DNA of 64,000 bases from an uncultured Desulfatiglans sp. (GTDB lineage Bacteria > Desulfobacterota > DSM-4660 > Desulfatiglandales > Desulfatiglandaceae). The stretch covers positions 1,991,325-2,055,324 of the forward strand of contig LR026961.1 of NCBI GenBank assembly GCA_900498135.1, read 5' to 3'. Shown here in pieces: positions 24,429 through 56,743 of this stretch. The notes below the pieces were generated by a model. The model saw nothing but the letters and a program-made list of their open reading frames with translations, was not told where the DNA came from and ran no database searches. A program made the translations under genes and the position numbers. Numbering within the stretch: the stretch's first letter is position 1; every line of letters starts with the position of its first letter.

Positions 24429-24539
24429 TGTTCGTCGAAGTTTGGGCACTGCACCGGTCTGGATCCGCCGGTCGGCGCAGGGCCGCCGATAAGAGCGCGG
24501 CTTTTGCGATGGAGGCCGCGATCCAGGGAAAGCGTTGAC

Positions 24540-26054: not shown

Positions 26055-26055
26055 T

Positions 26056-27285
26056 ATGACGGCCTTTTCCTACAGAGCCAGCGACCCGTCGGGCAAGATC
26101 GTACAGGGGAGCCTGGAGGCGGACGACCAGAAAGCGGCGGTGGGGCGGCTGCAGGAAATGGGGTACATCCCCATCCGGATCTCCCAGGCGGGGGGTAAGG
26201 GCCGGCGGTTTGGACTGGATCTGTCCGGCTCCGCGTCCGCTGTCTTCAAGCGCATCACCAACAAGGACGTCATGGTGTTCACGCAGGACCTGTCGGCGCT
26301 GCTCTCCGGCGGGCTGCCCGTGGACCGTGCCCTGTCCATCCTGATCGAGGCGGTCGAGAAAGACCGGTTCCGGGAAATTGTCACGGATATCCTCAAGACG
26401 GTTCAGGGTGGAAGCTATCTCTCGGATGCCCTTGCGAAGTATCCGCGGGTCTTTTCCAGGTTCTACATCAATATGGTGCGGGCGGGGGAGGCCGGCGGCG
26501 TTTTGGAGGCCGTGCTGGAGCGGTTGGCCATTTTCCTCGAAAGCTCCCAGGACCTGCGCGATTTCATCAAATCGGCCATGATCTACCCGATCTTCCTCAT
26601 CCTGGTCGGCGGGGCGTCGCTGATCATCCTGATGACCTACGTCATCCCGAAATTTTCCCTGATCTTCGCCGAAATGGGCGGTGCGATCCCTTGGCCGACC
26701 CAGATGCTGCTGGCCGTAAGTGAGGCGCTTCGGAGTTATTGGCCGATCCTGCTGGCCTTGCTCGCGGCGGCGGTCTTCGCTTCGAGGCGGGTGGCCCGCT
26801 CCCCGAAGGGCCGGCGCAGGCTGGACCGGCTCAAATTGACCCTTCCCTTCACAGGGGACCTGGTGAGCAAGGTCGAGGTGGCCCGTTTCACCCGCACGCT
26901 CGGGACGCTGACGCGGAGCGGGGTTCCGATCCTGCAGGCCCTGCAGCTGGCGACGGATATCATGGGGAATGTCATCGTCCGCGAGTCGCTCTCCGAGGTC
27001 TACGAGCGGGTCAAGGAGGGGGAGCGTTTGTCGAAGCCCCTCGGAGACATCGCAGTCTTTCCGCCTTTGGCGATCCAGATGATCATGGTCGGTGAGGAGA
27101 CCGGCCGGATGGACGACATGCTTCTACGGGTGGCGGAGAACTATGAGAAGGTGGTCAAGAACCTGATCAAGCGGCTGGTCAGCTTCCTCGAGCCGGCCAT
27201 GATCCTCTTGATGGGCGTCGTGGTGGGGTTCATCGTGATCTCGATGCTGATGGCCATCTTCAGCATGAACGATATGCCGTTTTAG
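26056..27285 (+). CDS. gspF: Type II secretion inner-membrane protein GspF
   Basis: A 409-residue polytopic protein with two T2SF domains, each ending in hydrophobic segments: helices near residues ~170-195 (AMIYPIFLILVGGASLIILMTYVI), ~220-240 and a final one at ~375-402. The motifs VFTQDLSALLSGGLPVDRALSIL and VARFTRTLGTLTRSGVPILQALQLATDIMGN are typical. It forms the platform on which GspE acts. The start overlaps the gspE stop region (TGATATG). Confidence 0.95.
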   Translation: MTAFSYRASDPSGKIVQGSLEADDQKAAVGRLQEMGYIPIRISQAGGKGRRFGLDLSGSASAVFKRITNKDVMVFTQDLSALLSGGLPVDRALSILIEAVEKDRFREIVTDILKTVQGGSYLSDALAKYPRVFSRFYINMVRAGEAGGVLEAVLERLAIFLESSQDLRDFIKSAMIYPIFLILVGGASLIILMTYVIPKFSLIFAEMGGAIPWPTQMLLAVSEALRSYWPILLALLAAAVFASRRVARSPKGRRRLDRLKLTLPFTGDLVSKVEVARFTRTLGTLTRSGVPILQALQLATDIMGNVIVRESLSEVYERVKEGERLSKPLGDIAVFPPLAIQMIMVGEETGRMDDMLLRVAENYEKVVKNLIKRLVSFLEPAMILLMGVVVGFIVISMLMAIFSMNDMPF

Positions 27286-27605
27286 GGGCGCCGGGCACCG
27301 GTCGGCTGGAGGGCGCCCCATGCCGGTTCCTGGAGGTTCGTAGGCCGCTTCGATCTGAAGGGGACCGGATGAGAACCTGCCGGAGGCACCCGGCCGCCAG
27401 CCCGTTTGTCGGCGGGGATGCCCCGGAAGTCCCGCAGGATCGCATCGCGAATGAGGAATTGTCTTCGAACAGGGGCTGGTTTCGATGAACTCGAAAGGAT
27501 AGAGGATCGCTGCGGGCGGGGTTATGCTCCATCACGGTGGATGAACTGTCATCGGATTACGGTGTGAGTCGTTGGAGAATACTGGGAAAGCGCGGAGGAA
27601 AAACA
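27286..27605 (+). other. Gap before gspG with a GC hairpin
   Basis: This 320-bp intergenic segment has no gene. A GGGGCGCC / GGCGCCCC hairpin lies at its left edge (27285-27320), right after gspF, which could reduce or terminate read-through, and a separate promoter for the highly needed major pseudopilin would fit the remaining space. I see no clear promoter consensus. Confidence 0.35.
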
Positions 27606-28037
27606 ATGAGAGATCGATGCAGACGGCAACAGGGTTTTACACTGATCGAACTTCTGATCGTCATGGTGATCATCGGCCTCCTGGCGGCCCTGGTGGGGCC
27701 GCGCATGTTCGGGAAGGTGGACGAGTCCAGGCAGCGGTCGGCCAAGGCGCAGATCTCGCTTTTCGAGACGGCCCTGGACACCTACCGCCTCGACACGGGA
27801 AAATACCCGACCACGGATGAAGGGCTCGAGGCCCTGCGGACAAAGCCGTCCGGGGTCGAGCGTTGGGATGGTCCGTATCTGAACAAAGAGGTCCCGAAAG
27901 ACCCCTGGGGGAACGAGTACGTTTATCAGTCGCCCGGCGAGCATGGCGATTACGACCTCAAGTCGTATGGGGCCGACGGCAGTCCGGGGGGTGAAGGTTC
28001 GGATATGGACATCGTGAACTGGAAGGACATCGGCTAG
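27606..28037 (+). CDS. gspG: Major pseudopilin GspG
   Basis: A 143-residue pseudopilin. The short basic leader MRDRCRRQQG precedes the prepilin peptidase site G^FTLIELLIVMVIIGLLAALVGPRMF, with Glu at +5. The C-terminal domain has the calcium-binding/glycine-rich pattern of GspG (DPWGNEYVYQSPGEHGDYDLKSYGADGSPGGEG). GGAGG 7 nt upstream sets the ATG at 27606. It polymerises into the pseudopilus that drives secretion. Confidence 0.97.
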   Translation: MRDRCRRQQGFTLIELLIVMVIIGLLAALVGPRMFGKVDESRQRSAKAQISLFETALDTYRLDTGKYPTTDEGLEALRTKPSGVERWDGPYLNKEVPKDPWGNEYVYQSPGEHGDYDLKSYGADGSPGGEGSDMDIVNWKDIG

Positions 28038-28233
28038 CGCCGGCGATGGCCTCTAAGAAGACCGGTCTTGCCGGCGGAGACCGGATGAATGCGGCCCCGT
28101 GGGTAAAGGGCCGCCCGGGGCCGTCGGCCCGATCGGCCCGCGGCGGCCGGGATGATCACAACAAGTGAAGCACGAGAGCCGTCATGCATGCTCCGGGGGG
28201 AAGCCATTGGAAGGGTTGAGGGGTGCGGGGCGA

Positions 28234-28773
28234 ATGCCTCGGAGGACAGGATGCCCCGGCTTCACGCTCATGGAATTGCTGGTGGTGCTCGTCTTGATAA
28301 GCCTTGTGGCGGTGGTTGTGGGGGTGCGGGCCGGCGGTGGATTGAGCGGGGCGGCGCTCCGGGACGCCGCCAAGAAGACGGCGGCCACGCTTCGCTATGC
28401 CCGCAGCCAGGCCAGTTGGGAGGGAGTCCCTTACGTGGTTCTGTTTTCGTTCGAAGACAATGCCCTGGCGCTTCTGGCCGTTCGCCCCGAAACGGAGGAC
28501 CAGGATGAGCCGGATCCGGACAGGAGCGAGGTCCGGCGCGACGAGCTTGGGCGTGTCATCCTGAAGACCTATACGCTGCCCGAAGGGGTGCGCCTCGAAA
28601 AGGCGGTTTGGGACGAAGACGAGAGGACGAGCGGGCTTTTCGAGATTGTATTTTCCCCCACCGGCGGCTGCACCGGCGGTGAGTTGGTTTTCGTCAACCA
28701 GCGCGAGGCGCGCTACCGCGTAGCCGTGGATTTTATCACCGGCGGTGTGCAGCTGACTCAGGTCGTGGATTGA
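28234..28773 (+). CDS. gspH: Minor pseudopilin GspH
   Basis: A 179-residue protein with leader MPRRTGCPG^FTLMELLVVLVLISLVAVVVGV, then a beta-rich C-terminal domain (LRDAAKKTAATLRYARSQASWEGVPYVVLFS), as in GspH/FimT proteins. The ATG at 28234 is preferred as it gives a normal short leader; a GTG at 28165 would add 23 residues. It lies in order between gspG and gspI. Confidence 0.85.
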   Translation: MPRRTGCPGFTLMELLVVLVLISLVAVVVGVRAGGGLSGAALRDAAKKTAATLRYARSQASWEGVPYVVLFSFEDNALALLAVRPETEDQDEPDPDRSEVRRDELGRVILKTYTLPEGVRLEKAVWDEDERTSGLFEIVFSPTGGCTGGELVFVNQREARYRVAVDFITGGVQLTQVVD

Positions 28774-28774
28774 A

Positions 28775-29350
28775 ATGGCTCCTCCTCGAACAAGACGCCT
28801 TCGACCGCATGGGTTCCGGGGTCATGTCCCGCGGGCGCTGCGGATTTTCGCGCGGCCGGAGAAAGGATGCCGGTCGGGGGAGGGCTGCGTCCGTTTTCTG
28901 CCGTCGCCGGGCCCGGACCGCTTGAGGGTGGAGGCGGGCTTCACACTCATGGAGATCCTGGTGGCGGTCGCTGTGCTGGCGATCTGCCTGGTGACGATCA
29001 TGCAGCTCTTTTCGGGAGGGCTCCGTTCGAGCAGGATCGCGGTGGATTACAACCGGGCGGTCTTTCACGCCCGCGAAAAGATGGAGCAGATCCTCGCCGT
29101 CGAGAACCTGGGGGAGGGCGTTGAGGAAGGGGATTTCGGCGACGGCTTCCGCTGGTGGGCCGAGACGGTGCTGGTGCTTCCGGAGGTGGAGGAGGCGGTC
29201 GCGGACGATAATATGCCTGTCATCGATCTGCCGTTCGATATCCTGTATGTCCGAGTCGTGGTTTTTTGGGGCGCGGGGGACAAGGAGAGGCAGTTCGAAC
29301 TCGAGACAGCCAAACCGATCGAGCCCGTTTTGTTGGCGGATGAGGGTTAG
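28775..29350 (+). CDS. gspI: Minor pseudopilin GspI
   Basis: The prepilin site is AGFTLMEILVAVAVLAICLVTIMQLFSGGLRSSR, followed by the short GspI-type C-terminal domain ending EPVLLADEG. As drawn from ATG 28775 the leader would be 55 residues, far too long and Arg/Pro-rich; the true start is probably internal, at the TTG near 28922 or the GTG near 28928, giving a leader of six to eight residues. The gene follows gspH by 1 nt and overlaps the gspJ upstream region. Confidence 0.8.
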   Translation: MAPPRTRRLRPHGFRGHVPRALRIFARPEKGCRSGEGCVRFLPSPGPDRLRVEAGFTLMEILVAVAVLAICLVTIMQLFSGGLRSSRIAVDYNRAVFHAREKMEQILAVENLGEGVEEGDFGDGFRWWAETVLVLPEVEEAVADDNMPVIDLPFDILYVRVVVFWGAGDKERQFELETAKPIEPVLLADEG

Positions 29351-29354
29351 CGGA

Positions 29355-30005
29355 ATGAGCCGGCCGGCTGCAGGGGGATTTACGCTCCTGGAACTGATGC
29401 TTTCGATGACTATCATGGCGGTGGTGATCGTGCTCGTCCTCGGGGCCTTTCAGTTGGGTGTCCGGGCCTGGGAAAAGGGCGAGAGGGATATCGGCTCCTC
29501 TGAGCGCCAGCGCGTCGTTTTGGATCTGATAAAGCGCCAGATCGCCTCGATGTGGGTCCGGGTGCCGCCTCCAAGCCTGAATGAAGATGAGCAGGTCCTG
29601 CTGTTTAAAGGGGATGAACGGTCGATGTCGTTCATCTCCCACAAGGCGCTGGCTCCAGGGCACAAGTTCGGGATGGTTTATGTCCGATACGATGTGCTGC
29701 GGGATGGGGAGGGCGGCACCGGCATCCGGCTTTTCGAGGAGAACACGGTCTTCATGGGGCCCTATGCCGACCTTGGCCGGATCAAGGACAAGGATACGGT
29801 CTGGCTCCTCGAGGGGGCGGAGGCGGTCCGATTTGCCTACCTCACGCCGGAAACCGACGGCTCGCCGGGCGAATGGGTCGATGCCTGGGACGCGCTGGAG
29901 TATCGAGGCTACCCGAAGGCGGTCGGCATTTCGTTTCAGGGGGCGGGGGACGAGGCCGTGATCGAGGTTGTCGCCCCCATCCTGCCGGAGGTCTTCTTTG
30001 ACTAG
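29355..30005 (+). CDS. gspJ: Minor pseudopilin GspJ
   Basis: A 216-residue pseudopilin with leader MSRPAAGG^FTLLELMLSMTIMAVVIVLVLGAFQLG and a larger periplasmic domain, ending VVAPILPEVFFD. The ATG at 29355 follows GAGGG at good spacing; another ATG at 29340 overlaps gspI. GspJ joins GspI and GspK in the tip complex of the pseudopilus. Its 3' end overlaps the gspK start. Confidence 0.88.
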   Translation: MSRPAAGGFTLLELMLSMTIMAVVIVLVLGAFQLGVRAWEKGERDIGSSERQRVVLDLIKRQIASMWVRVPPPSLNEDEQVLLFKGDERSMSFISHKALAPGHKFGMVYVRYDVLRDGEGGTGIRLFEENTVFMGPYADLGRIKDKDTVWLLEGAEAVRFAYLTPETDGSPGEWVDAWDALEYRGYPKAVGISFQGAGDEAVIEVVAPILPEVFFD

Positions 30006-31035
30006 GCGGCGCCGCGCTCAAATGCTTCAGGAGGAAGGGTTCGCCCTTTTCCTGGTGCTGTGGGTCCTCATGTTTCTTTCCGTGATCGTTGGGGAGTTCT
30101 GCTACGCCATGCGGACAGAACTCAACATCGCCCGGAATTTCAAGGAGGAGACGCAGGCCTACTATGCGGCGAGGGCGGGGCTGTGCCAGGGCCTGAAGAT
30201 GGTCATTGAAAACGAGCTGCGCCCGCAGGAGATCATGCGCATCGAAGAGGAGGTGCAGACCGGTGAAGAATGGGACGGCGAAGGGCGCGACCAGCTTCGG
30301 ATCAACGTCAAGCTGCCTCCGGCGCCGTTCGGGCGCGCCGGCTATGAGTTGATGATCGGCAACGAGAGCGGGAAGGTCAACCTGAATCAGGCCGGCCCGG
30401 AGCTTCTGATGATGATGCTGAACGGCTTCGAGTTGGAGGACGCCGACCGGGAGGTCATCGTGGACTCCATCCAGGATTGGCGGGATGAAGACGATTTGCA
30501 CCGGGTGAACGGGGCCGAGACGGACTATTACAAGGGCCTGCGCCCTCCCTACGAGGCGAAGAACGGGCCCTTCGATTCCGTCGAGGAGCTGCTCCTGGTA
30601 AAGGGCGTCACGCCCGAACTCTTCTACCACGGACTCAAGGATCTCGTCACGGTTTATCCGTCCCCGGATGCGCCGGGGTTCAGCATGCGCCGGAGGGGGG
30701 CGGGGGGGGACCCCCATCGGATCAATATCAACGCCGCCTCTCCGCAGATGCTGCTGGCCTTGCCGGGGATGACCGAAGATCTTGTACAGGCGCTTCTCGA
30801 ATACCGGGAATCGCAGGATTTTCTGGCCGAGAGCGACATCGTCGGTGTCGTCGGCCCGGACGTCTTTCGAATGATCCAGCCCTTCGTGACGTTGCGGCTG
30901 AATCCATACTACACGCTGACGGCGACGGGTCTGCTGCCCGATAGCCGCGTCAGGCAGACGGTGGAGATGCTCGTCGAGGTCGACAGCCGGTACCCCAAGC
31001 AGTACCGGGTTGTGCGGTGGATCGATGGGGTGTGA
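29998..31035 (+). CDS. gspK: Minor pseudopilin GspK
   Basis: A 345-residue protein with a basic leader (TRRRRAQMLQEEG) before the hydrophobic segment FALFLVLWVLMFLSVIVGEF. It lacks the usual +5 Glu, as is typical of GspK. The remainder has two SAM-like domains (SGKVNLNQAGPELLMMML, and RININAASPQMLLALPGM). The TTG at 29998 overlaps gspJ; an ATG at 30022 would shorten the leader. It caps the pseudopilus tip. Confidence 0.9.
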   Translation: MTRRRRAQMLQEEGFALFLVLWVLMFLSVIVGEFCYAMRTELNIARNFKEETQAYYAARAGLCQGLKMVIENELRPQEIMRIEEEVQTGEEWDGEGRDQLRINVKLPPAPFGRAGYELMIGNESGKVNLNQAGPELLMMMLNGFELEDADREVIVDSIQDWRDEDDLHRVNGAETDYYKGLRPPYEAKNGPFDSVEELLLVKGVTPELFYHGLKDLVTVYPSPDAPGFSMRRRGAGGDPHRININAASPQMLLALPGMTEDLVQALLEYRESQDFLAESDIVGVVGPDVFRMIQPFVTLRLNPYYTLTATGLLPDSRVRQTVEMLVEVDSRYPKQYRVVRWIDGV

Positions 31036-31050
31036 TGAAGGAGGTGGATC

Positions 31051-32424
31051 TTGGCATTGAGAACCTGCATCGGCGTCGATATCGGCCGTGAAAAGGTCAG
31101 GATGGTTTATCTGACCCAGAGCGGCAAGAAGGTGCAAGTCGCCGCCCATGCGGTCTATCCGATCGGGGAGGAAATAAAGCCGGGCGGTCTGCATGAACTG
31201 CTGCGCGAATTCATGCGGGAGAATCGGATCGCCGGCACCGACATCTACGCGGGCGTCGGCCGTGACCGGGCCTTTGTCCGGTTCATCGATCTGCCGCTCG
31301 CGGTCAAGGAGAACCTCCGGGAGACGATCGGTTACGAGATCGAAAAGTATATCCCCTTTCCCGCGGAGGAGGTTTGTTTCGATTTCGAAGTGGTGGCCGA
31401 GGACCGGGAAGCGGGGCAGATGAAGGTCCTGCTGGCGGTGGCGAGGCTTCGGAGCATCGAACCGCTTTTCGGGGACGGCGCATCCTCTTCCCTGCTGCTC
31501 TCCGGAATAGAGCCGAGCGCCTCCGCACTGGCCAATTTCTGCCTTTTGGGGGTCGGATCGGTGGGGCGTGGGTCTGCCGCTTTTCTCTTCTCCGGGGATG
31601 GCGACGCCGAGCTGAACCTGGTCGAAGGGCGAAGACTCATCTATTCTCGGGCGTTTCCAGCCGGAGCCGGCCGGGCGGGTCAGGTCCAGGCTTGGGTCGA
31701 AGGGCTCCGAAGGCTCAGGAAAGAGGTCGAGGGTCCGGATGGAGGGGGGCTCATCCCAGTCTATATCAGCGCGGAGGAGACCGCCTTTGCGGCCCTTTCG
31801 TCGGATGATGGTTTGAGCGGCTTCGAGCCGAGGCCGGTGGACCCGGATGGGCTCGGTTTGCCGTCGCGCCATTTTATCCCGGCCTATGGGCTGGCATTGC
31901 GAGGCCTTGGGGAGGGATTCGTCAAGCTCGATCTTCTGCCTCCCCGCTACCGCAAGAAGGCGAGCCGGACGGGTTTGTATGTGTTCTCGGTCCTGGCGGT
32001 GCTGGTTGTCGTTCTGGCCTTTGCGTGGGGAGCCGGATCGTATCACCAGGAAAAGGACTACCTCGCCCAGTTGGAAGAGGCGCAGACACAGCTCGAGGCC
32101 GACGTGAGCCGCATCCGGGAGATCACCGCCGAAAGCGAGGCGCTCGAGGCGCGGATCGGATACTTGAACAGCCTGGAGCAGGGAGACACGCAGGTCCTCG
32201 ACATCCTGAGGGAGCTGACGCGGCTCATCCCGGAAACGGCCTGGTTGAGGCGGTTCAGCTATTCGGAGAGGAGCGTCGAGATCGAAGGCTACGCGGACAC
32301 GGCCTCCGAGCTTATCACGCTCCTGGAGGACTCGCCGATATTTAAAGATGTGTCGTTTCTCTCGGGGATTACGAAGTCGCGTGAAGGAAAGGAAACGTTC
32401 CGGATCGGCTTGAAGATCGGGTAG
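31051..32424 (+). CDS. gspL: Type II secretion protein GspL (PilM/PilN-like)
   Basis: A 457-residue bitopic protein. The cytoplasmic part has the actin-like fold of GspL/PilM (CIGVDIGREKVRMVYLTQSGKK; GYEIEKYIPFPAEEVCFDFEVV), then a transmembrane helix near residues ~310-328 (GLYVFSVLAVLVVVLAFAWGAG), a coiled coil (YLAQLEEAQTQLEADVSRIREITAESEALEARIGYL) and a ferredoxin-like periplasmic end. AAGGAGG precedes the TTG start. It links GspE to the inner-membrane platform. The extra periplasmic PilN-like part makes it similar to PilM-PilN fusions. Confidence 0.88.
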   Translation: MALRTCIGVDIGREKVRMVYLTQSGKKVQVAAHAVYPIGEEIKPGGLHELLREFMRENRIAGTDIYAGVGRDRAFVRFIDLPLAVKENLRETIGYEIEKYIPFPAEEVCFDFEVVAEDREAGQMKVLLAVARLRSIEPLFGDGASSSLLLSGIEPSASALANFCLLGVGSVGRGSAAFLFSGDGDAELNLVEGRRLIYSRAFPAGAGRAGQVQAWVEGLRRLRKEVEGPDGGGLIPVYISAEETAFAALSSDDGLSGFEPRPVDPDGLGLPSRHFIPAYGLALRGLGEGFVKLDLLPPRYRKKASRTGLYVFSVLAVLVVVLAFAWGAGSYHQEKDYLAQLEEAQTQLEADVSRIREITAESEALEARIGYLNSLEQGDTQVLDILRELTRLIPETAWLRRFSYSERSVEIEGYADTASELITLLEDSPIFKDVSFLSGITKSREGKETFRIGLKIG

Positions 32425-32431
32425 GGCGGGC

Positions 32432-32989
32432 ATGCAGATCGAATGGAACAAGAGAACCCGGATCATCGTGTTATGCGGCCTTGTGGCGCTTCTTGGGGGG
32501 GTGCTTTTCCGCTTCTATCCCGCCCTGAGCGGCATGTTCGACCGGAGCGACGAGATCGCCTCACGGGAACTGACCTTGAGGAAGTACCGGAAGGTGGTGG
32601 AGTCCGGGGAGGACGTGAACGTCCGCATCGACAGCCTGCGAAAGATGCTCGGGCGGATGGAGGCGGGGCTTCTGAAGGGTACGACGCCCTCTCTTGCGGC
32701 CGCCGATATCCAGAGTATCCTGAACGGCATCGCTGACCGCAGCAAGGTGCAGACCAAGACGGTCCGGGTCCTCAAGGCTGAACCGGTCGAAGGCCTGCCC
32801 TACATGAGTGTTCCTGTCGAGTTCACGGTGAACTGCGGCATCCGGCAGTTGAAGGAGATCCTGTATCAAATTGAAAACTCTCCAAAATACTTGACAGTGC
32901 AAAAAGTGCGGATTAACGTGGTCCGGCGGGGTAGAGTCGATCAAATTCAGGGAGATGTGACCGTTGTCGGCCTGATGAGGAAAAGTTGA
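32432..32989 (+). CDS. gspM: Type II secretion protein GspM (PilO-like)
   Basis: A 185-residue inner-membrane protein with a single N-terminal TM helix (IIVLCGLVALLGGVLFRFYPAL), a short coiled region and a ferredoxin-like periplasmic domain (VPVEFTVNCGIRQLKEILYQIENSPKYLTVQKVRI). It partners GspL. Start ATG 32432, 7 nt after the gspL stop. A fragment of the 220-bp repeat lies just past its 3' end. Confidence 0.82.
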   Translation: MQIEWNKRTRIIVLCGLVALLGGVLFRFYPALSGMFDRSDEIASRELTLRKYRKVVESGEDVNVRIDSLRKMLGRMEAGLLKGTTPSLAAADIQSILNGIADRSKVQTKTVRVLKAEPVEGLPYMSVPVEFTVNCGIRQLKEILYQIENSPKYLTVQKVRINVVRRGRVDQIQGDVTVVGLMRKS

Positions 32990-32996
32990 TGAATTT

Positions 32997-33060
32997 CCAA
33001 TCCGGAAGGGGTGTTTTTTGCCAATCTGGGTGTCGATCTGCACGGTGAAGTTCCTTCCGG
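32997..33060. repeat. Shortened copy of the 220-bp repeat inside the secretion operon
   Basis: CCAATCCGGAAGGGG through GGGTGTCGATCTGCACGG follows the left half of the family, then goes straight to TTCCTTCCGG, as if the middle and most of the right half were deleted. It lies in the 221-bp gap between gspM and gspC. Confidence 0.5.
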
Positions 33061-33210
33061 GTGAGCACGGCCTTTCGGATAGGGGGAAGACCGTTGCACA
33101 AGTCGTAATCGCCGATTTCGGACCCTGTAGATTCAGCGCAGGTGTTCAAGTCGGCCTGCCGTTGCGGTTTTTGGGGTGAACTCTTTGGGACCCTCTGAGA
33201 GCGGCCTTGC

Positions 33211-34122
33211 ATGATGCTGAAAAGGATATGGATAGTCAATCTGTTCCTGATGCTCGCCTTGATCTTCCTGGGAATCAAGACGTATGCGGTTTGGGTGAAC
33301 GACCGCCAGGAGGTTGTCGAGGTCGGTGAAGGGGACGCTTCTTCCGGTCAACCGGCGCCCCCCCTGCCCAAGGCCTCTCAGAAAGAGGTTCCTTCCGAAG
33401 CGGACTATGAGCTTGTGGCCGTGAAGAACCTGTTTGCGGCCGATCGGGTCGAGCCGAAGGAAGAGGAGCCGGAGGAGACAAAGGAGCCCGAGGCGCGGGT
33501 TGACCCCCGCGCTCAGCGAAGTGCCGAGGACGTCTTGAAAGAGATCAGCCTTTACGGGGTGGTGATTGTGGACGACTACAGGGCCGCCCTGCTCCAGCAC
33601 CCCGCTGCGCTCGACGAGGCGGGCCTCGACCCGCGGCAGCTCCGGATGCTGCGCTACAAGAGGGCGCGGCGCGGGGCGCAGCAGTTGGAACGGAGCTGGG
33701 TGAAGGTCGGCGAGGGTGTCGACATGTTTACGCTCTCCGAGATCCTGGCGGATCGTGTCGTTTTGACCGATGCGTCGGAGGGTCGTTATGAGGTCTTTCT
33801 TTATGATACCGGAAACCCCAAAGAGCGCGAGGAAGTGAAGGAAAAGGAGAGCAAGCCGATCGTCGTCGAGGTGAAGCCCGACGAGCCGGCGCAGGTCGCT
33901 TCCCCACCGGCGCCGGCGGCCCCGCCCAGGCCCGGCCCGCGGACTTCGCCGGGGAGCGAGTCGGCCCCGGGAGCGGGAGAGGTACCAGCCCAGGGCGCGA
34001 GTCCCCCGCCTCCGAGCGCACCGGCGCCGGCGGCCTCGCCCGGGGCGGTTGAAAGCCCGCCGGACGCACCCGTGCGAAAACTTCCTGCCAACATAAGAGA
34101 GAAACTTCTGAGGGTTAATTGA
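33211..34122 (+). CDS. gspC: Type II secretion protein GspC
   Basis: A 303-residue bitopic protein: N-terminal TM helix (IVNLFLMLALIFLGIKTYAVWV), a linker, an HR-type periplasmic domain with YELVAVKNLFAADR and LKEISLYGVVIVDDYRAALLQ, and a long Pro/Ala-rich C-terminal tail of about 80 residues instead of a PDZ domain. GspC recruits the secretin; the missing PDZ is common in short GspC. Its stop overlaps the gspD start. Being next to gspD at the end of the operon, and not the start, is unusual. Confidence 0.85.
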   Translation: MMLKRIWIVNLFLMLALIFLGIKTYAVWVNDRQEVVEVGEGDASSGQPAPPLPKASQKEVPSEADYELVAVKNLFAADRVEPKEEEPEETKEPEARVDPRAQRSAEDVLKEISLYGVVIVDDYRAALLQHPAALDEAGLDPRQLRMLRYKRARRGAQQLERSWVKVGEGVDMFTLSEILADRVVLTDASEGRYEVFLYDTGNPKEREEVKEKESKPIVVEVKPDEPAQVASPPAPAAPPRPGPRTSPGSESAPGAGEVPAQGASPPPPSAPAPAASPGAVESPPDAPVRKLPANIREKLLRVN

Positions 34123-36392
34123 TGAAAAAAAGGCTGCTGTCTGCAACCACCATCGTTGCCTTGGCCCTGTCACTCCTTCTTTTTGCCGGGGGCTGTGCCA
34201 TTCCCCCGTTAGGGAAGGTTACGGAACGTGGCGGGGAGGAGGCCATGGCCGAAAAGACGCCTCCCGCCACCTCGCTTGAAGCGTCCGGCGCGGAAGCGAC
34301 CGAAGCGCGCTCCCGCAGGAGTTATTCTACATCCGTGGCGGAGATCGATGGGGCGGTGGAACCGGAAGGCCCCGACACCCTGTCCCGCACCGTCAGGGGA
34401 GGCGGCCCGTCTCCCGCCGCGAAGACGAGGCGGCTGGAGGAAGGGACCATCTTTGAGCCGGCTGCGCCTGTAAAGAAGGGCGACGGCAGCGAGGTGGTCT
34501 TCAATTTTGATGACGCCGACATCTATGAGGTCATCAAGACGGTCGGCGATCTTCTCGACATCAGCTACATCGTCGGGCCTGAGGTGCGCGGAAAGGTCAC
34601 CATCCATACGGCCAAAGGGCTCAGCAAGGCGGATCTGTTCCCCATTTTCAATCAGATCCTGGACATCAACGGCCTTGCGGCGGTGAAGGAAGGGGACTTT
34701 TACAAGATCATTCCATTGAAAGACGCCTCGCGCCTGCCGGTGGTATCCCGTTTCGGAAGGGAAGGGGAGATCGGGGCAGCTGGAGAGCGTATCATCATCC
34801 AGCTCATCCCGCTGCAGTTCATATCCCCGGACGAGATGACGAAGCTCTTGACGCCCTTCGTGTCGGCCAACGGGGTGATCCTGTCCCACCCCGGCAGCAA
34901 CACCCTCGTCGTGGTGGACAAGAGCCTCAACATCAACAAGATCCTCCGGCTGGTGGATGTCTTCGACATCAACATCTTCGACAATGTCCACTATCGCATC
35001 TACCCCCTGAAGCACATGGTGCCGGAGGACATGGGCGGCATCCTGGAGGATATCTTTACCGCCTACGGGGCGCGTGAAAATCTGCCGATGAAGTTCATCG
35101 CCCTCGCGAGCCTCAATCTCCTGATGGTCGTGAGCTCCACACCGGATGTCTTCCCTCGGATCGACAGCTTCATCGCGGAACTGGATGTCGCATCCGAGGA
35201 GGTCGTCCACAAGATCTATGTTTACTATGTAAAGAACGGCGAATCCTCCAACCTGGCGGAGATCCTGCAGAACGTCTTCAGCGGCGAGGGGGGGAGCGTC
35301 GGCGGCCAGTCAGCCGGGACGAGCAAGAAAACGACCGGCAGCTCCTACTCGCGGAACCCGTTCGGCGAGAGTTCCATGCGCGACCGGGACGAAGACGAGC
35401 GCACCAGTTCGTTCGGCAGCACGAGGGAGACCGGGACTTCGACCTCGACGACCCCCAAGGGAAGCACGAGCGCCACCTTGAGCAAGGGGGAGAAAACCAA
35501 CGGGGGGACCCTGAAGGACGATGTGACCATCACGGCCGACGAGATCCGGAACGCCTTGATCATCGACGCGGTGCCGTCGGACTATCGGGTCATTGCGGAG
35601 ATCCTGAAAAAACTCGATATCCTGCCCCGTCAGGTGCTGATCGAGGCGACGATCGCCGAGATCACCCTCGACAAGAGCGACCAGCTCGGGGTGGAGTGGT
35701 CGTTCGGGAGCGCGGTCATCGGCAAACCGACCTCGTTCGCCGCCACGCTGGGCGCTTCAGGCCTGAAATACTCCCTGGGAGTGACCGAGAAATGGTACGC
35801 GGAGTTGAACGCCCTGGCATCCAAAAACAAGGTCAACGTCCTTTCCAGCCCGCACGTGCTCGCCTCGGACAACAAGGAGGCGCGTATGGACGTCTCCCGT
35901 GAAATCCCGGTGGCGAGCGCCTCCTACCGCTACAGCTCCAGCACGGATCCCGTGACCGAGACGAGCATCCAGTACCGGGACACCGGTGTCATCCTGACCG
36001 TGACGCCGCACATCAACGAGCGGGGTCTGGTGACGATGGAGATCAGCCAGGAGGTGAGCGACCAGAGCGAGGACGTGCAGGTGGCCGGCCAGAAATATCC
36101 ATCCTTCTTCAAGCGGACGGTCAACACGACCCTGACGGTGAGGGACGGCCAAACCCTCGTTATAGGAGGGTTGATCAAGGACAAGGAGAGTTCATCCTTC
36201 GGAGGGGTGCCCTGCCTGATCAACGCGCCGGTGCTCCGCTACCTGACGGGGACGGGCTCGGAAAGCCTCGAGAAGACCGAACTCATCATCCTCATCACCC
36301 CCCGCGTCATCGTCAATGACGAAGATGTCGAGATCGTGACCACCGAGTTCAAGGACAAGGTCCGGCATGTGACCGAGCGCTTCCAGCATTAA
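34122..36392 (+). CDS. gspD: Type II secretion secretin GspD (lipoprotein)
   Basis: A 756-residue outer-membrane secretin. It has a lipoprotein signal (LALSLLLFAGGC) whose cysteine is near residue 26, a low-complexity linker to ~125, N0/N1-type domains (VVFNFDDADIYEVIKTVGDLLDISYIVGPEVRGKVTIHT), further N domains, a Ser/Thr/Gly-rich insertion at about 390-460, and the C-terminal secretin pore (VPCLINAPVLRYLTGTGSE, LIILITPRVIV). Start ATG 34122 overlaps the gspC stop by one nucleotide. As a lipoprotein it may not need a separate GspS pilotin, and none is seen. Confidence 0.95.
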   Translation: MKKRLLSATTIVALALSLLLFAGGCAIPPLGKVTERGGEEAMAEKTPPATSLEASGAEATEARSRRSYSTSVAEIDGAVEPEGPDTLSRTVRGGGPSPAAKTRRLEEGTIFEPAAPVKKGDGSEVVFNFDDADIYEVIKTVGDLLDISYIVGPEVRGKVTIHTAKGLSKADLFPIFNQILDINGLAAVKEGDFYKIIPLKDASRLPVVSRFGREGEIGAAGERIIIQLIPLQFISPDEMTKLLTPFVSANGVILSHPGSNTLVVVDKSLNINKILRLVDVFDINIFDNVHYRIYPLKHMVPEDMGGILEDIFTAYGARENLPMKFIALASLNLLMVVSSTPDVFPRIDSFIAELDVASEEVVHKIYVYYVKNGESSNLAEILQNVFSGEGGSVGGQSAGTSKKTTGSSYSRNPFGESSMRDRDEDERTSSFGSTRETGTSTSTTPKGSTSATLSKGEKTNGGTLKDDVTITADEIRNALIIDAVPSDYRVIAEILKKLDILPRQVLIEATIAEITLDKSDQLGVEWSFGSAVIGKPTSFAATLGASGLKYSLGVTEKWYAELNALASKNKVNVLSSPHVLASDNKEARMDVSREIPVASASYRYSSSTDPVTETSIQYRDTGVILTVTPHINERGLVTMEISQEVSDQSEDVQVAGQKYPSFFKRTVNTTLTVRDGQTLVIGGLIKDKESSSFGGVPCLINAPVLRYLTGTGSESLEKTELIILITPRVIVNDEDVEIVTTEFKDKVRHVTERFQH

Positions 36393-36411: not shown

Positions 36412-37485
36412 TCAGCGGCGCACCAGCGAACAGCAGCCGAGGCAGCCGGGGAAGACGCCCCGGCTGCCCAAGGCCTTTCTGAAGGCCCTGGCGCTTTGGC
36501 TGTTGCGCGCCTCCTTCCAGTTGTCTTCCTGAATATTTCCCACCTTGAGATACGGGCAGATGTAGATGTCGCCGTGCGCCGTCAGGGTCATGCCATGCCA
36601 GGGGAAGGAACAGGTGTAATCCTGGAGGCGAAACGCGCCGTTGTAGTAATCGGCGAAGTCCTTCGGCCCGATCCCCTGAGGGGTGGTCCGGATCTGGATC
36701 GGCCCGGCCTGCCGAAAGATGGATTCGAGGGTGGTCTGCAGCTCCGCTCGCGGCAGAGGTTCGACCGGCGGGGGGGATTTCCACGGGGAGGGGCTGACCC
36801 CCTCGATGCGACCGAGGTGGGGCATCCTGTTCATGGCCATCGGGTTGAAGAGGTCCGCCCCGAGGTCCTTGGCGAGCCGAAACAGCTCCTCGATTTCACC
36901 AAGGTTTTCAGGGGTGAGCACGGCCTTGATCTCGACCAGGGGGAAGCGCTTCCCGCGCCGCCTCCGTTCCTCCAACAGGTTCTGAATCCCCGCAAGCGTC
37001 CGGTCGAAGGCCCAGGAACGATCAACCAAATGGTTGTGGGTGTCTTTCAGGCCTTCGAACGAGATGCCGACGAGGACCAGCCCGTTATGGAGGATGCTCG
37101 GAGCACCGAGATCGACGAGGTGTTTGACGGTCGGGCGATCGAGGCGGGTCCCGTTCGTGAAGATGTGGGTCCGGTGCCGCCGGGACGTTGCCCTCAGGAG
37201 GTCCAGAAAACCGGGCTTGAGCGTCGGCTCGCCCCCGGAAAAGGAGATGACGGCGCCGCGCGGCACCGCCTGGAGAGCTTCCTCGAACCGCTGAGAAGAC
37301 AGTTCAAGGCCGGCCGAACCCTCAGCGGGCGCCTCACGGAACTGGCAAAACAGGCAGGAAAGGTTGCAGCGATAGGTCAGCTCCACATAAGCCTGAAAAG
37401 GCGGCGGAGCAAAGCCATCAGGAAATTGCTGGCAAACCTTTCCGAAGAGCCTGGAAAGTCGCTGATAGAGGCCGGAGTAATCCAT
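36412..37485 (-). CDS. Radical SAM protein with SPASM-like C-terminus
   Basis: A 357-residue radical SAM enzyme. The Fe-S site CNLSCLFC is at residues ~39-46, SFSGGEPTLKPGF is motif 2, and a C-terminal cysteine set (CSFPW, CPYLKVGNI, CLGCC) resembles SPASM/twitch auxiliary clusters. Such enzymes modify peptides or act in cofactor and carbohydrate pathways. It is convergent with gspD (19 bp apart). A terminator lies between it and the lipoprotein gene upstream, so it has its own promoter. No peptide precursor gene is obvious nearby. Confidence 0.85.
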   Translation of the reverse strand: MDYSGLYQRLSRLFGKVCQQFPDGFAPPPFQAYVELTYRCNLSCLFCQFREAPAEGSAGLELSSQRFEEALQAVPRGAVISFSGGEPTLKPGFLDLLRATSRRHRTHIFTNGTRLDRPTVKHLVDLGAPSILHNGLVLVGISFEGLKDTHNHLVDRSWAFDRTLAGIQNLLEERRRRGKRFPLVEIKAVLTPENLGEIEELFRLAKDLGADLFNPMAMNRMPHLGRIEGVSPSPWKSPPPVEPLPRAELQTTLESIFRQAGPIQIRTTPQGIGPKDFADYYNGAFRLQDYTCSFPWHGMTLTAHGDIYICPYLKVGNIQEDNWKEARNSQSARAFRKALGSRGVFPGCLGCCSLVRR

Positions 37486-37534
37486 CGGTCACCGAAGGAA
37501 ACATCGATCACACCAAAAACTGCAAGGCTGATTT

Positions 37535-37567
37535 GAAAAAAAACTAAGCGGCACCACGAGGGCCGCT
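37535..37567 (-). terminator. Terminator of the lipoprotein gene
   Basis: On the minus strand AGCGGC pairs with GCCGCT and is followed, after TAG, by a run of eight Ts. It lies about 95 nt downstream of the lipoprotein stop codon. Confidence 0.65.
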
Positions 37568-37660
37568 GGAAGTACGAAAGGGCCTAGGCACAAAGGGCCT
37601 TCGCAGGGTTTATGAAAAAAGGTAGGCCTCATGATCGGAAACAGCAGGAAGACAACATCA

Positions 37661-38200
37661 TCATTTGTCTCCGTCACCTTCAGGAGCCGGCTCCCCGGGA
37701 GCAATAGGATTGGAAGGCTTGTCATTTGATTTGTCTGAGCCTTTGCTGGAAGGGTCCTGGGCTTCAGGGATATTTCCGAAGGGCCATTTGAAGACATGAT
37801 ACCAGAGGTTGTCGCGCAGGATCCAATTATCGACCAACTGACTCTCGATCGTCGGAGGGTCCGCCTCACGCGCATTGGGAAACACCCATGAATAGCGGAT
37901 TTTCATAGTCACGTAGGCTGTGGATGGGTCCTCTTTAAGTTTAAGAGAGTGGACCGATGCCTCCTTCCACTTCGCGCCACTCCCGAAGGATCGCATATAT
38001 TGGGAAAGAGATGCCCCTCTAAGAGATTCAGGCTCTTCCATGGCATAGGTCTTTTCAAAGTCAAGGCTGATGCGATGCTGCCAGTACTCTGCTGCACGGG
38101 CTGAAAGGGCCTCGGGGCTGGAGGTGTCAAGACGGGGTTCTTTCGAGCATGCGAATAAGAGAAAAATCGATAAAAGAGCTGAAAAGAGCAGGCCCCCCAT
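37661..38200 (-). CDS. Putative lipoprotein of unknown function
   Basis: A 179-residue product with a lipobox-like leader (GGLLFSALLSIFLLFACSKEP; Cys at ~19). The mature part has SARAAEYWQHRISLDFEKTYAMEEPESLRGASL and VTMKIRYSWVFPN, an alpha+beta pattern seen in NTF2-like or DUF-type periplasmic domains, then an acidic/Ser-Pro tail. An upstream in-frame extension exists but would hide the signal. It lies between the terminators at 37535 and 38307, so it is a single-gene unit next to the secreted-protein gene. A link to secretion is only positional. Confidence 0.7.
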   Translation of the reverse strand: MGGLLFSALLSIFLLFACSKEPRLDTSSPEALSARAAEYWQHRISLDFEKTYAMEEPESLRGASLSQYMRSFGSGAKWKEASVHSLKLKEDPSTAYVTMKIRYSWVFPNAREADPPTIESQLVDNWILRDNLWYHVFKWPFGNIPEAQDPSSKGSDKSNDKPSNPIAPGEPAPEGDGDK

Positions 38201-38306
38201 GACGAAATTTCGAGGTGGAAAAAAGGACAGCCGCGGGCCTTTAAAAACGGGGAGAGAGAAACCATTAACCACAGTAACCTCCATAACCATGCGGATGGGT
38301 GATAAA

Positions 38307-38350
38307 AGAAACGAGCCCTCGCTTTTTAGAACGAAGAGGCTCGTTTCTTT
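38307..38350 (-). terminator. Terminator downstream of the secreted-protein gene
   Basis: AAACGAGCC and GGCTCGTTT form a 9-bp stem; on the minus strand it is followed by TCTTTT. It separates the 618-residue secreted protein (stop at 38463) from the lipoprotein gene. Confidence 0.65.
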
Positions 38351-38385
38351 GTCTACAGCAGAATAATTTAACCAGTAATCTTAAT

Positions 38386-38427
38386 GCATGTGCCCTGTTA
38401 GAGAACAACCATCATCAGGGCACATGC
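38386..38427. other. 12-bp perfect hairpin after the secreted-protein gene
   Basis: GCATGTGCCCTG (38386-38397) pairs perfectly with CAGGGCACATGC (38416-38427) around an 18-nt loop. There is no T-run. It lies between the stop of the secreted-protein gene and its terminator and could stabilise the 3' end of that mRNA. Confidence 0.5.
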
Positions 38428-38462
38428 GTGGGTTGAAGCAAAATACTGCTAACTAGGCGAGC

Positions 38463-40319
38463 CTAGTTACCTGCAGTAGCATTCGAATATCCCGGGTTGT
38501 CCCAGGAAGGATCCAAGGCCCTGGAGTGATCATAGTTTTCAAAGTTGAAATCCATGAGCAGAACCGAGGCTGGGATGGCTTGAAATTCGTTCAAGAAAAG
38601 CATGGTTGGCTGATAGTTAGGTGTTATGGCATTTCTCATCTGGAGGTAATCCTCGGAGTAGCCACCACCGTAATCGTAATTACGCGGATCAGCGCCGGCG
38701 GCCACGATGTTGAACATGTGGAAAAGGCCGCCGGGGAAGATATTGGCAGGTGCATCGATGCAATCGTCGGTTGTGTTCAAGGTCAGGAAGCAGAACTTCT
38801 CAAGCGCATCCTGCGACGCCGCACCAATGGGAACCAGGGTCACTTCCCACGGGAAGCGGATATTCGGGAAAGGCGACCCCTCGGGCCTGCAGGGCCTTTC
38901 ATTCCAGTCCCAGAGACCGAAGCGGACGTACATTTCCAGCGCGTATTCTACGACGTCGAGGCGCTGACGCACGTTCTGGGCATCTGCGGGAAATCCGACA
39001 GGCCAAGCACCAACGGAGCCCTTAAGGTAGCTATAAATGGCAGACTGACCAACGCCACCCTGCAAACCGCTCAGGATGTCGTAGAACTGGTGCAGGTACT
39101 TGGTGGGGAAGGTCACAGCCGCCATGGTGTAGGTATCGTTGTTCGTGTTATTGAAGTAAGTGCCCCAGATGTCGCTCTTGATGATCGCATCGTCGACTTC
39201 GTCGAGGCTGTAAGACTGAACGTAAAGGTCCGCAAGCTCGTGAGACCTATGGCCGTCATGGATCCAGTCGTCGCCGTCATTCCAAGTCGGACCGAAGCTT
39301 GTCGCCCAGTCGGGGTCGGTGTAGGCAGGATCATCCTCATAGGCGCCGTAAACGATGATTCCACGAGGCGAGAACCAGCCGCGGATGATGTCGTCGCGAT
39401 GGACAGGACCTTCATTGTCTGCCAGGACCGGGAAGCCTTGATCGAAAACGAAGTCTGTGCACTGGGCGCGGAAGTTCTGAATGGCGCGCATGGGGTAGCC
39501 CATGTAAACGCCGTTCGAGAAATCGCCGAGATAGACCTGGCCCATGAGGTAGTTCTGCACGTCGGAGAAAAAGATGTCGGTGTAACCGTTGTAATCAACG
39601 GTGACATAAGCGTTCGCGTCGGCCTCGGTGCAGTTCGCTGAACCTGCCACGTTGGCATAGAGTTTGCCCATCAGTCCCTGAACGGTATTTCCCTCGACAG
39701 CGGCCGGGGAAGCGCGGAAAGCGAAGAGGCCGAAGACCTCGACGTGACCCTGGGTGGTCTCGAGCCAAAGATCGGATTGTTCGGTCCAACCATAGCTTGC
39801 ACGCATCTTGGAGAACTGCTCCAGAAGTCCGGTATCGAGGGACTTGGTCCAGGTGGTGCCATCCGGTGCAGCCCAAGGAACCAGACCGCTGTACTTGAGG
39901 GTTTTGGTGTCCGCGCTCCAGAGAACGATGTCAACCAGTTCTCCGTTTTCGAACACGGGCTGATACTGCATCCAGAAGACATCCCTGGGGCTCAACAGGA
40001 TCGGGAAGTCCTTGACTTCGATGCTGTACCGTCCTGCGCGCAGCCGCACGTGGGCGGCGACCCAGTAATTGGACGTATTCTCAATGGTGAAGAAGGTGAC
40101 GAAATTGAGATCGCCGACCTCATCGAGGCTGACGCCGCGATAGAGTTCGCCGAAGAGGGCGTCACCCATATTGCCATGGTTCCACAGCATCGGGGTGGGA
40201 GGCGCGGTCATGGGAATACCGGCCTTGCCGATTGGATCGTACGAGGTCGCCATGGCGTTCCCCGCTGCGAAACCGACGGCCAGCAGCAAAACGAGGAAAC
40301 AATAGAAAATCTTTTTCAT
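38463..40319 (-). CDS. Large secreted protein of unknown function
   Basis: A 618-residue protein with a clear signal peptide (MKKIFYCFLVLLLAVGFAAG..NAMA before TSYDPIGKAG). The mature part is rich in Tyr, Trp, Asp and Asn, has only a few cysteines (NCTEAD, QCTDF, PCRPE, CFLT, DCIDA) and no repeats or transmembrane region; I recognise no domain. AAGGAGGTAAAGAG precedes the ATG and a strong promoter lies 140 nt upstream, both pointing to high expression. Lower GC than neighbours is apparent. Closeness to the type II secretion operon makes it a candidate secreted client or envelope protein, but enzymatic motifs are not visible. Confidence 0.8.
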   Translation of the reverse strand: MKKIFYCFLVLLLAVGFAAGNAMATSYDPIGKAGIPMTAPPTPMLWNHGNMGDALFGELYRGVSLDEVGDLNFVTFFTIENTSNYWVAAHVRLRAGRYSIEVKDFPILLSPRDVFWMQYQPVFENGELVDIVLWSADTKTLKYSGLVPWAAPDGTTWTKSLDTGLLEQFSKMRASYGWTEQSDLWLETTQGHVEVFGLFAFRASPAAVEGNTVQGLMGKLYANVAGSANCTEADANAYVTVDYNGYTDIFFSDVQNYLMGQVYLGDFSNGVYMGYPMRAIQNFRAQCTDFVFDQGFPVLADNEGPVHRDDIIRGWFSPRGIIVYGAYEDDPAYTDPDWATSFGPTWNDGDDWIHDGHRSHELADLYVQSYSLDEVDDAIIKSDIWGTYFNNTNNDTYTMAAVTFPTKYLHQFYDILSGLQGGVGQSAIYSYLKGSVGAWPVGFPADAQNVRQRLDVVEYALEMYVRFGLWDWNERPCRPEGSPFPNIRFPWEVTLVPIGAASQDALEKFCFLTLNTTDDCIDAPANIFPGGLFHMFNIVAAGADPRNYDYGGGYSEDYLQMRNAITPNYQPTMLFLNEFQAIPASVLLMDFNFENYDHSRALDPSWDNPGYSNATAGN

Positions 40320-40458
40320 CTCTTTACCTCCTTAAAAGATTTCAAACGAACAGAAACAACAAGCACACAAGCGGGTCTTCCTTCCAGAACCGTTGACTTC
40401 ATCACCTCCCTTCTGCGTCTAGGTTTGAAATGACTACAGCTGATGGGCATTTTGGGGA

Positions 40459-40486
40459 ATTATCGCACGGAGCGCACAGATGTCAA
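40459..40486 (-). promoter_or_regulatory. Strong promoter of the secreted-protein gene
   Basis: On the minus strand a perfect TTGACA (40486-40481) is followed by 16 nt and GATAAT (40464-40459). Transcription would start near 40452, leaving a 130-nt 5' leader before the AAGGAGG site. The remaining gap 40487-40676 has no other feature. Confidence 0.7.
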
Positions 40487-51266: not shown

Positions 51267-51598
51267 TGTTCGTTCCAGTAACGGCCGGGATGGCGTTCCC
51301 GTCCGGAAAGGGTTTGTAAGGGCAGGGATAGGCCTCGCTTTGTCCCTGGTTCGTGCGGCGTCGAGAAAATCGTTTCAGGCCTGCGGGTGCCCGATAAGGA
51401 TCCCCGGTTGAGCATGGGCAGGCGATTGTTCGAACATGCCAAAAACTATAACAACTCCGGAGACTGCGGGGCAAGGTTTAAAAATGGTTGCTGGATTGGG
51501 GGATTTGAGAGGTTCGATACGCCAAGGGAGGGGAGCGGACTGGGTGGCATGGATCGATCCCTTCGCCTGGGGATCGGGCAGGAGGCCGTGTGCAGCCG
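51267..51598. other. Divergent intergenic region of the sugar cluster
   Basis: This 332-bp gap separates the minus-strand dehydratase operon from the plus-strand membrane-protein gene. A weak match to the left end of the 220-bp repeat (CCCGTCCGGAAAGGGTTTG) is at about 51296. An AT-rich patch near 51435-51460 (with TATAAC) is the best place for promoters. No gene is visible. Confidence 0.35.
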
Positions 51599-53215
51599 AT
51601 GGGGTTTGATTTGGGGCGTTTCCCTGTAACGGATGCCAAGCGGACGGTCCGGGACGGCCTGATCTTGTGCGGAATGTCTGCGGTCATCGTGGCGTGTTTC
51701 GTGTGGGCGCAGCAGGATCTGTTTTTCAACCTGCTCGACGAGGGTTCTTTATGGTACGGGGTTTGGCGGACAGCGGCGGGGGAGGTCCCCATAAAGGATT
51801 TTCTCTCCTACGATCCAGGCCGGTACTATTTCTGCGCCGCACTCACCCGCCTTTTCGGCGACGGCCCGATAGGGCTACGCTGGGCCGCAGGCGTTTTTCA
51901 GTGGCTGGGCCTGTCGTGCGGGATGCTGGTCTTGAAGCGGATGCTTTCGAGCCGTCTGGCCCAGGCGGGCGCCGCCTGCCTGATCATGATCTGGATGATC
52001 CCCTGGTACAAGACCTTTGAACAAAGCATCGCGCTCATGGCCGTTTACGGTGCATGCCTGCTGCTGGAGCGGCCCTCCGGTGCCCGCTTCTTCTGGGGCG
52101 GGTGCTTCGTCGGCCTGGCGGCCTTTCTTGGTCAGAACCACGGCGCCTACATTGGGCTGAGCTACCTGGTGGTGATGCTTCTGGCAGGGATCGGGGCTGA
52201 ATTCCGGGTGGTGCTTCGCCGGTTCGGCGCCTTCACGGCGGGGGTCCTGATGGGTTTGCTGCCCCTTGTCGGCATGATCGTCGGCGTGGACGGGTTTCTG
52301 GAGGGCTGCCTGAGGCGCTTCGAGTTCATTGCCTCGGGCGTAGCCAATCTGTCTCTGGAGGTGCCCTGGCCGTGGAGGGCCGGCGGCCCGGGAAGGGACG
52401 GAATCCTGTTCTTGCATGAGCTTTGCACGGGCCTTTTCTTCGTGCTGCTGCCTCTTTCCTATGCAGCGGTCCTGATCTGCGCCGCGTTCGGCGCGATCAG
52501 GAAGCGCCCGCGGACGCTCCCTGATTTACCGGTTGCCTGTGCCGTGGTGGGTCTGCCCTATCTGCACCATGTCTTCGGGCGCGCGGATCTTCCCCATCTG
52601 GCGCAGGGAATCCCGGCATTCTTGCTGCTGGCGGTGTTTTTCATCAGGTGGCTGGCTCGAAGAGCGAGGGCCTGGCATGGGGCCGTGGCCTTCGCGGCCG
52701 GACTCGGCTTGGTCTGTGCCTCCTGCTTTTCCGCCGGCCTTGCCAACCCCGTTTACAGGAGGGCCTCGGCTCCGCCCGGAGCGCTGGCGAAAACGGAGAT
52801 CGGGGGGGATGCACTGGTGATGTACAGCACGGAGGCGGCCACGATCGACGGGGTCAGGGAAGCGGTTGCCCGTCATCTCCGTCGCGAGGATCGGATCCTT
52901 GTGGCGCCGCACTGGCCGGGATTCTACCCGATTCTTGAAAAGACGTCCCCGCTCTGGGAGCTCTACTTTCTCTTTCCTGATTCGAAAGAAAGGCAGCTGG
53001 AAAAGATCGCTGCGCTCGAGGAGAAGAAGGTTGGATGGGTGTTCATGGGGGATGACGCGGTTATGCGCGCCGACGGGCTCTCCTTCAGGGATACCCACCC
53101 CTTGTTATGGGAATATATCGAAAACCATTTTACCACGGTGAGTCGGGGAAAAGGGGGGGCCTTCGGCTGGATGCTCATGAAAAGGGTCCCATTGCCTTTG
53201 GCCGGGGGGCTATAG
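51599..53215 (+). CDS. Multi-pass membrane protein, possible membrane glycosyltransferase
   Basis: A 538-residue protein with about ten hydrophobic helices between residues ~20 and ~410 and a periplasmic-type soluble end. The first loop (DLFFNLLDEGSLWYGVWRTAAGEVPIKDFLSYDPGRYYFCAAL) carries Asp/Glu and YDPG like the GT-C fold of PMT/ArnT-type enzymes, suggesting transfer from a lipid-linked sugar. The ATG at 51599 (AGGAGG 11 nt upstream) is preferred to a GTG nine bases earlier that is too close to that site. It leads into the ABC exporter after an AT-rich gap. Confidence 0.7.
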   Translation: MGFDLGRFPVTDAKRTVRDGLILCGMSAVIVACFVWAQQDLFFNLLDEGSLWYGVWRTAAGEVPIKDFLSYDPGRYYFCAALTRLFGDGPIGLRWAAGVFQWLGLSCGMLVLKRMLSSRLAQAGAACLIMIWMIPWYKTFEQSIALMAVYGACLLLERPSGARFFWGGCFVGLAAFLGQNHGAYIGLSYLVVMLLAGIGAEFRVVLRRFGAFTAGVLMGLLPLVGMIVGVDGFLEGCLRRFEFIASGVANLSLEVPWPWRAGGPGRDGILFLHELCTGLFFVLLPLSYAAVLICAAFGAIRKRPRTLPDLPVACAVVGLPYLHHVFGRADLPHLAQGIPAFLLLAVFFIRWLARRARAWHGAVAFAAGLGLVCASCFSAGLANPVYRRASAPPGALAKTEIGGDALVMYSTEAATIDGVREAVARHLRREDRILVAPHWPGFYPILEKTSPLWELYFLFPDSKERQLEKIAALEEKKVGWVFMGDDAVMRADGLSFRDTHPLLWEYIENHFTTVSRGKGGAFGWMLMKRVPLPLAGGL

Positions 53216-54355: not shown

Positions 54356-54377
54356 GAGCGATGCGGGGCTGCGACCG

Positions 54378-55736: not shown

Positions 55737-55791
55737 CCGGCCGGAGCCGCTTGCATCTGGATCGGCCGTATCGGGAAAGGAAACGGAGCAC

Positions 55792-56727: not shown

Positions 56728-56743
56728 TCCAGGGCCATAGGAC

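Follow-up and report, generated by a model that had tools for sequence, protein, structure and literature searches.

Surface layers bound to lipopolysaccharide or O antigen, such as those of Campylobacter fetus (SapA) and Caulobacter (RsaA), tie a surface protein to a type of polysaccharide. In C. fetus a conserved promoter is combined with swapped coding parts, as we propose for the 618-residue protein gene described here. SapA and RsaA have no Sec signal peptide and use type I export, whereas the 618-residue protein has a Sec-type N-terminus, and the family libraries gave no match between it and S-layer proteins of the SapA/RsaA type. The SlpA S-layer cassettes of Clostridioides difficile occur as many allele types, and the type decides phage susceptibility (PMC10100898). 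By analogy, SlpA is the closest functional parallel to our locus, where strongly diverged alleles of one putative surface protein also occur among close relatives. SlpA differs in belonging to a Gram-positive organism, in its cell-wall-binding motifs and in being a two-chain processed protein, and no sequence relation between SlpA and the 618-residue protein was found. A further comparison is offered by the ASRAH domains (ASRT, TM1070 and actinobacterial lipoproteins; PF07100), which are predicted sugar binders; in secreted actinobacterial proteins they form dyads, with a glycosyltransferase adjacent (PMC2739507).

The window (the whole 64,000-nucleotide stretch of DNA that was analysed, from an uncultured Desulfatiglans sp.) contains the gene together with the following signals.

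40486..40459, minus strand: sigma-70-like promoter, TTGACA-16-GATAAT, 11/12 consensus positions, with TG before the −10 element
40320..40452, minus strand: untranslated leader of ~132 nt, its start placed from the −10 element, ending in AAGGAGG-N7-ATG
38463..40319, minus strand: open reading frame of the putatively exported 618-residue protein, from the reading frame and family alignments
40248..40319, minus strand: predicted Sec signal peptide, residues 1-24, with the cleavage site placed by eye and A24 conserved in family alignments
38450-38469, minus strand: 3' hairpin 1, overlapping the stop codon of the reading frame
38386-38427, minus strand: 3' hairpin 2
~38305-38350, minus strand: terminator-like hairpin with a T-run, between the 618-residue protein gene and a lipoprotein gene

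The preliminary description of this DNA had reported an unrecognised secreted protein of 618 residues, rich in aromatic residues and Asp/Asn and without a known domain, and this description holds. The reading frame is real, the N-terminus (MKKIFYCFLVLLLAVGFAAGNAMA) looks by eye like a typical Sec signal, and the mature part contains 15% aromatic residues and 14% D+N, with a pI of 4.3 and only 1.9% Lys. Searches of Pfam, NCBIfam and PDB sequences returned zero matches, and a known enzyme or PDB relative was thus rejected. We also rejected a cytochrome nanowire subunit, since the sequence has no CxxCH motif, and a phage or plasmid origin, since no relatives were found among viral contigs or plasmids. 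The gene is single-copy in its own 4.80-Mb one-contig genome.

The consensus promoter, the AAGGAGG site with a 130-nt leader, and the terminator and end hairpin of the same description were all recovered; the strong expression read from them there is a prediction. Shuffled sequence yields about as many promoter-like sites as the region itself (1.5 against 2), which makes the consensus on its own weak proof; the call is supported by the −35 and −10 elements and the early leader, which are 95-97% identical in the sister species G001. The Shine-Dalgarno sequence AAGGAGG lies at 40327-40333, 7 nt from the ATG. Of the three 3' hairpins one is T-tailed, and hairpins 1 and 2, taken together, are much more stable than shuffled sequence (z −3.7). 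The leader RNA itself is unstructured, folding worse than shuffles (z +1.7), and has no Rfam match, on which grounds a riboswitch or other structured leader was rejected. A small upstream frame within the leader (ATG at ~40400, 28 codons, overlapping the start of the gene) was discarded because the sister species has non-synonymous changes in its codons, and by eye its Shine-Dalgarno spacing is poor too. The leader is single-copy, with no repeat elsewhere in its own genome, and among the 46 genomes of the taxonomic family the sister species is the only other one with the complete leader.

A homology search, one of the checks proposed in the preliminary description, identified a new protein family with members in 12/395 sampled genomes of the phylum, a sporadic distribution. 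The sister-species homologue is about 52-53% identical in protein sequence, two genomes of another class (G369 and G480) encode proteins ~41-42% identical, and relatives at 25-29% identity occur in the window's own family and order, in Desulfonema magnum and in MAGs; no paper on the D. magnum member was found in the literature. Several further families of the phylum have shorter members of ~450 residues. The members are collinear over their full length save for that of G089, one of the 12, whose match is weak and N-terminal only. Conserved stretches are GD...Y...NTS...S.EV.DF..LSP.DV, GYVEVIG, N.LTG, FPTK, W/YD.EE, EVN and GW. A 3.5-kb contig labelled Cloacimonadota (L020) carries a close relative of the D. 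magnum locus and is probably misbinned or recently transferred. A second family member in G372 (L070 616-3480) is extended by PKD-like repeats and adjoins a PPIase and Wzm/Wzt genes.

The protein tree conflicts with taxonomy. The proteins of the window's genome (G000) and of G001 join those of G369 and G480 from another class, apart from the own-family members G003, G011 and G028, and monophyly of the taxonomic family is rejected (log-likelihood 281 worse, p-AU 2e-10). The proteins of G003 and G028, from two genera of one taxonomic family, are 61% identical, more than those of the congeners G000 and G001. The sequence tree thus indicates that the gene has also moved horizontally on a longer time scale.

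The window and the sister genome were compared by BLAST of their DNA, and show ~95% mean identity over 48.7 kb aligned of a 51.7-kb stretch. A single divergent island interrupts this similarity.

37023..40246, no strand: divergent island covering the 5' half of the radical-SAM gene, the lipoprotein gene and most of the 618-residue protein gene
36412..37485, minus strand: radical SAM/SPASM protein gene, its 5' half in the island and its 3' half in conserved DNA

The core of the island (37023-39964, 2.94 kb) is ~69% identical or unaligned, with a second dip to 77% at 40053-40246. Nowhere else in the 51.7 kb does a stretch longer than 250 nt fall below 80% identity or fail to align; other low stretches span at most 241 nt. 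Synonymous divergence (dS) of the 618-residue protein gene is ~1.25, as compared to 0.04-0.26 in reliably compared flanking genes (the AsnB row of the divergence table rests on 14 codons and was ignored), and that of the lipoprotein gene is saturated. Within the radical-SAM gene, the 5' part has a pS of 0.64-0.74 and the 3' part one of 0.17-0.21, placing a breakpoint inside this gene near 37,020. Since dS is raised together with dN and dN/dS is 0.36, replacement by a long-separated allele is favoured over fast selection on the resident one. The gene therefore looks like an exchanged allele cassette, very diverged within near-identical DNA, where the recent exchange is read from one species pair (two genomes of the genus) and the tree.

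Fast evolution in place, or relaxed constraint, could produce such an island without any allele replacement. Identity declines gradually from the leader into the gene (97, 82, 82, 72-82, then <60%), and the window and sister alleles are still mutually nearest among those sampled, as expected under evolution in place. We nevertheless consider it very improbable, given a dS raised about five-fold or more, the sharp drop within the radical-SAM gene and a lipoprotein gene that is equally affected. Since the divergence also takes in half of an enzyme gene, any selection may have acted on another part of the island.

The gene neighbourhood is marked by a lipoprotein and by polysaccharide export, in addition to the secretion operon beside which the preliminary description had correctly placed the gene.

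24504..36392, plus strand: type II secretion (gsp) genes, GspE to GspD, from homology and gene order
37661..38200, minus strand: small lipoprotein gene, lipobox-like LLFAC, ~179 residues from an inner ATG
51590..60667, plus strand: surface-polysaccharide export cluster, made up of the next five lines
51590-53215, plus strand: 541-residue membrane protein, no Pfam match
53552-54355, plus strand: Wzm-like ABC2 permease
54399-55706, plus strand: Wzt-like ATPase
55786-56727, plus strand: sulfotransferase-like protein
56744-57925 and 58118-60667, plus strand: glycosyltransferases

The lipoprotein matches no Pfam family, and its own family adjoins a homologue of the 618-residue protein gene in 16/19 loci with any context, several of them short contigs: the window, G001, G003, G028, G369, G372, G480, D. 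magnum, two other MAG contigs, G453, G325, G400, G288, G354 and G368. In the other three the contig ends (G011), the lipoprotein lies 3.6 kb away at a contig edge (G046) or it was not found (G089). A Wzm-like ABC-2 permease is present in the fetched stretch of 9 loci, usually with a Wzt-like ATPase. G003, G028 and D. magnum share the window's arrangement of Wzm with the 541-residue membrane protein. In other lineages, family members repeatedly have CAP-domain secreted proteins and PpiC/SurA-like isomerases as neighbours; both are absent from the window.

Several further observations concern these neighbours. The 541-residue membrane protein, likely of glycosyltransferase type, is conserved near Wzm/Wzt or the 618-residue family in G001, G003, G028, D. 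magnum, L020 and L022. Beside its gene (window 53218-53458) the gene order ceases to be collinear with that of the sister genome, which is rearranged there, with Wzm/Wzt on the same contig at a distance of ~9 kb. A PPPGSPW(H/R)P peptide is shared between family proteins and adjacent, unrelated CAP-domain proteins in the G046 and G011 pairs (L060 7070-8584, L062 2624-4045). In G293, the same lipoprotein family occurs downstream of a different secreted protein (L074 668-1120 and 1366-2661), the C-terminal part of which weakly matches PF07100 (ASRT). This secreted protein was rejected as a family member for want of a sequence link, and the locus is an independent hint tying the lipoprotein to secreted proteins of ASRAH type.

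The proximity of the gsp operon, 2-14 kb from the gene, raises the possibility that the 618-residue protein is a type II secretion substrate released to the medium beside its own machine, for example a protein that binds or degrades polysaccharide or nutrients. Its export-type N-terminus, as judged by eye, would suit such a substrate, and in G368 and G089, too, a family member has GspD-like genes nearby. The G089 homologue, however, is weak and N-terminal only, the flanks fetched for most relatives contain no gsp gene, and the link is much less consistent than those to the lipoprotein and to polysaccharide export; no enzyme family was recognised, and the conserved residues do not appear to form an obvious catalytic set. 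We therefore regard a released substrate as unlikely, while noting that a type II substrate and a surface protein are compatible with each other. The linkage to Wzm/Wzt, glycosyltransferases, PPIase and lipoprotein would also suit a protein that assists the export or assembly of polysaccharide and acts, with the lipoprotein and PPIase, in the periplasm or outer membrane and is not displayed. This we judge distinctly unlikely, as the family is sporadic while the exporters are probably common, and as assembly factors do not usually differ so extremely between genomes that are nearly identical.

Structure prediction, likewise proposed in the preliminary description, yielded models of moderate confidence with two beta-sandwiches resembling TM1070/ASRT (window protein, with a beta-sandwich at residues 45-283, pLDDT 63 and pTM 0.74; a shorter member from G288, with two beta-sandwiches, pLDDT 70.5 and pTM 0.79).

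39471..40187, minus strand: domain 1, residues ~45-283, predicted beta-sandwich with large inserts, from model and alignment
38481..39212, minus strand: domain 2, residues ~370-613, second predicted beta-sandwich, the structural match having been made on the G288 member

Invariant positions in domain 1 are GD...Y...NT...D...S..D and GY/HVEV, and domain 2 has the conserved motifs FPTK, WD.EE and EVN. The best PDB match of domain 1 of the window protein is TM1070 (Z 8.5). In the G288 member both halves match ASRAH structures best in the PDB, domain 2 matching TM1070 (Z 9.2, 2.6 A, 106 of 116 residues) and domain 1 orthologous ASRT (Z 5.6-5.8). Since the typical best Z of the structure-search tool for models with no clear match is already 7-8, the likeness to TM1070 is a good lead and not proof; Foldseek, run with these moderate-confidence models, gave a probability of 0.97 against 1nc7, yet an E of 0.07. 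Residue N81, the last of strand 74-81 and invariant in 16/16 aligned sequences, corresponds to the conserved Asn that closes strand 2 of ASRAH domains. The family differs from ASRAH in its large inserts and in the absence from its alignment of the Trp that begins strand 1 and of the SHExxCxxN signature, the latter being required only of the ASRT-like subfamily. Profile comparison revealed no similarity to ASRT (hhalign probability <1%, no Pfam hit), and sequence homology to ASRT, as well as between domains 1 and 2, is not supported. On the predicted fold, the 618-residue protein may work like an ASRAH dyad, although we do not claim that it is one.

The two sandwiches, the lipoprotein, the export clusters and a cassette behind a constant promoter together suggest a variable surface protein associated with exported polysaccharide, like the swappable S-layer cassettes, a reading to which we give an even chance. 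The preliminary description had proposed a major exported or surface protein of a new family. The new family stands, and an exported or surface protein fits the secretion-type N-terminus, the lipoprotein and the polysaccharide context. In the proposed mechanism, the exported, acidic protein with its two beta-sandwich domains would be placed at the cell surface, where it would associate with the polysaccharide that the linked Wzm/Wzt-type clusters synthesise and export, and the partner lipoprotein would handle or anchor it. The fixed promoter and leader would drive whichever allele is present. Recombination would exchange the coding cassette (the 618-residue protein gene, the lipoprotein gene and the start of the radical-SAM gene) between lineages, such that closely related lineages would carry highly dissimilar proteins on their surfaces, perhaps under selection by phages or other surface-recognising agents. 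Pfam and NCBIfam revealed neither an SLH or other S-layer domain nor a known polysaccharide anchor in the protein, which is compatible with an S-layer function because S-layer families are diverse.

A more specific and tentative possibility, to which we give less weight, is an undescribed surface coat of the phylum, in which a tandem ASRAH-like lectin and its lipoprotein would sit on ABC-exported polysaccharide, joined in many lineages by the PPIase and CAP protein. Swappable alleles behind a fixed expression site would then change surface identity, for example against phages.

If the variable surface protein reading is correct, the little-known surfaces of a large group of environmental anaerobes would carry a surface-protein system with its own lipoprotein, and cassette-type exchange of surface proteins would occur outside pathogens. 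The locus would also provide a handle on phage-receptor variation and a possible protein partner of ABC-exported polysaccharides.
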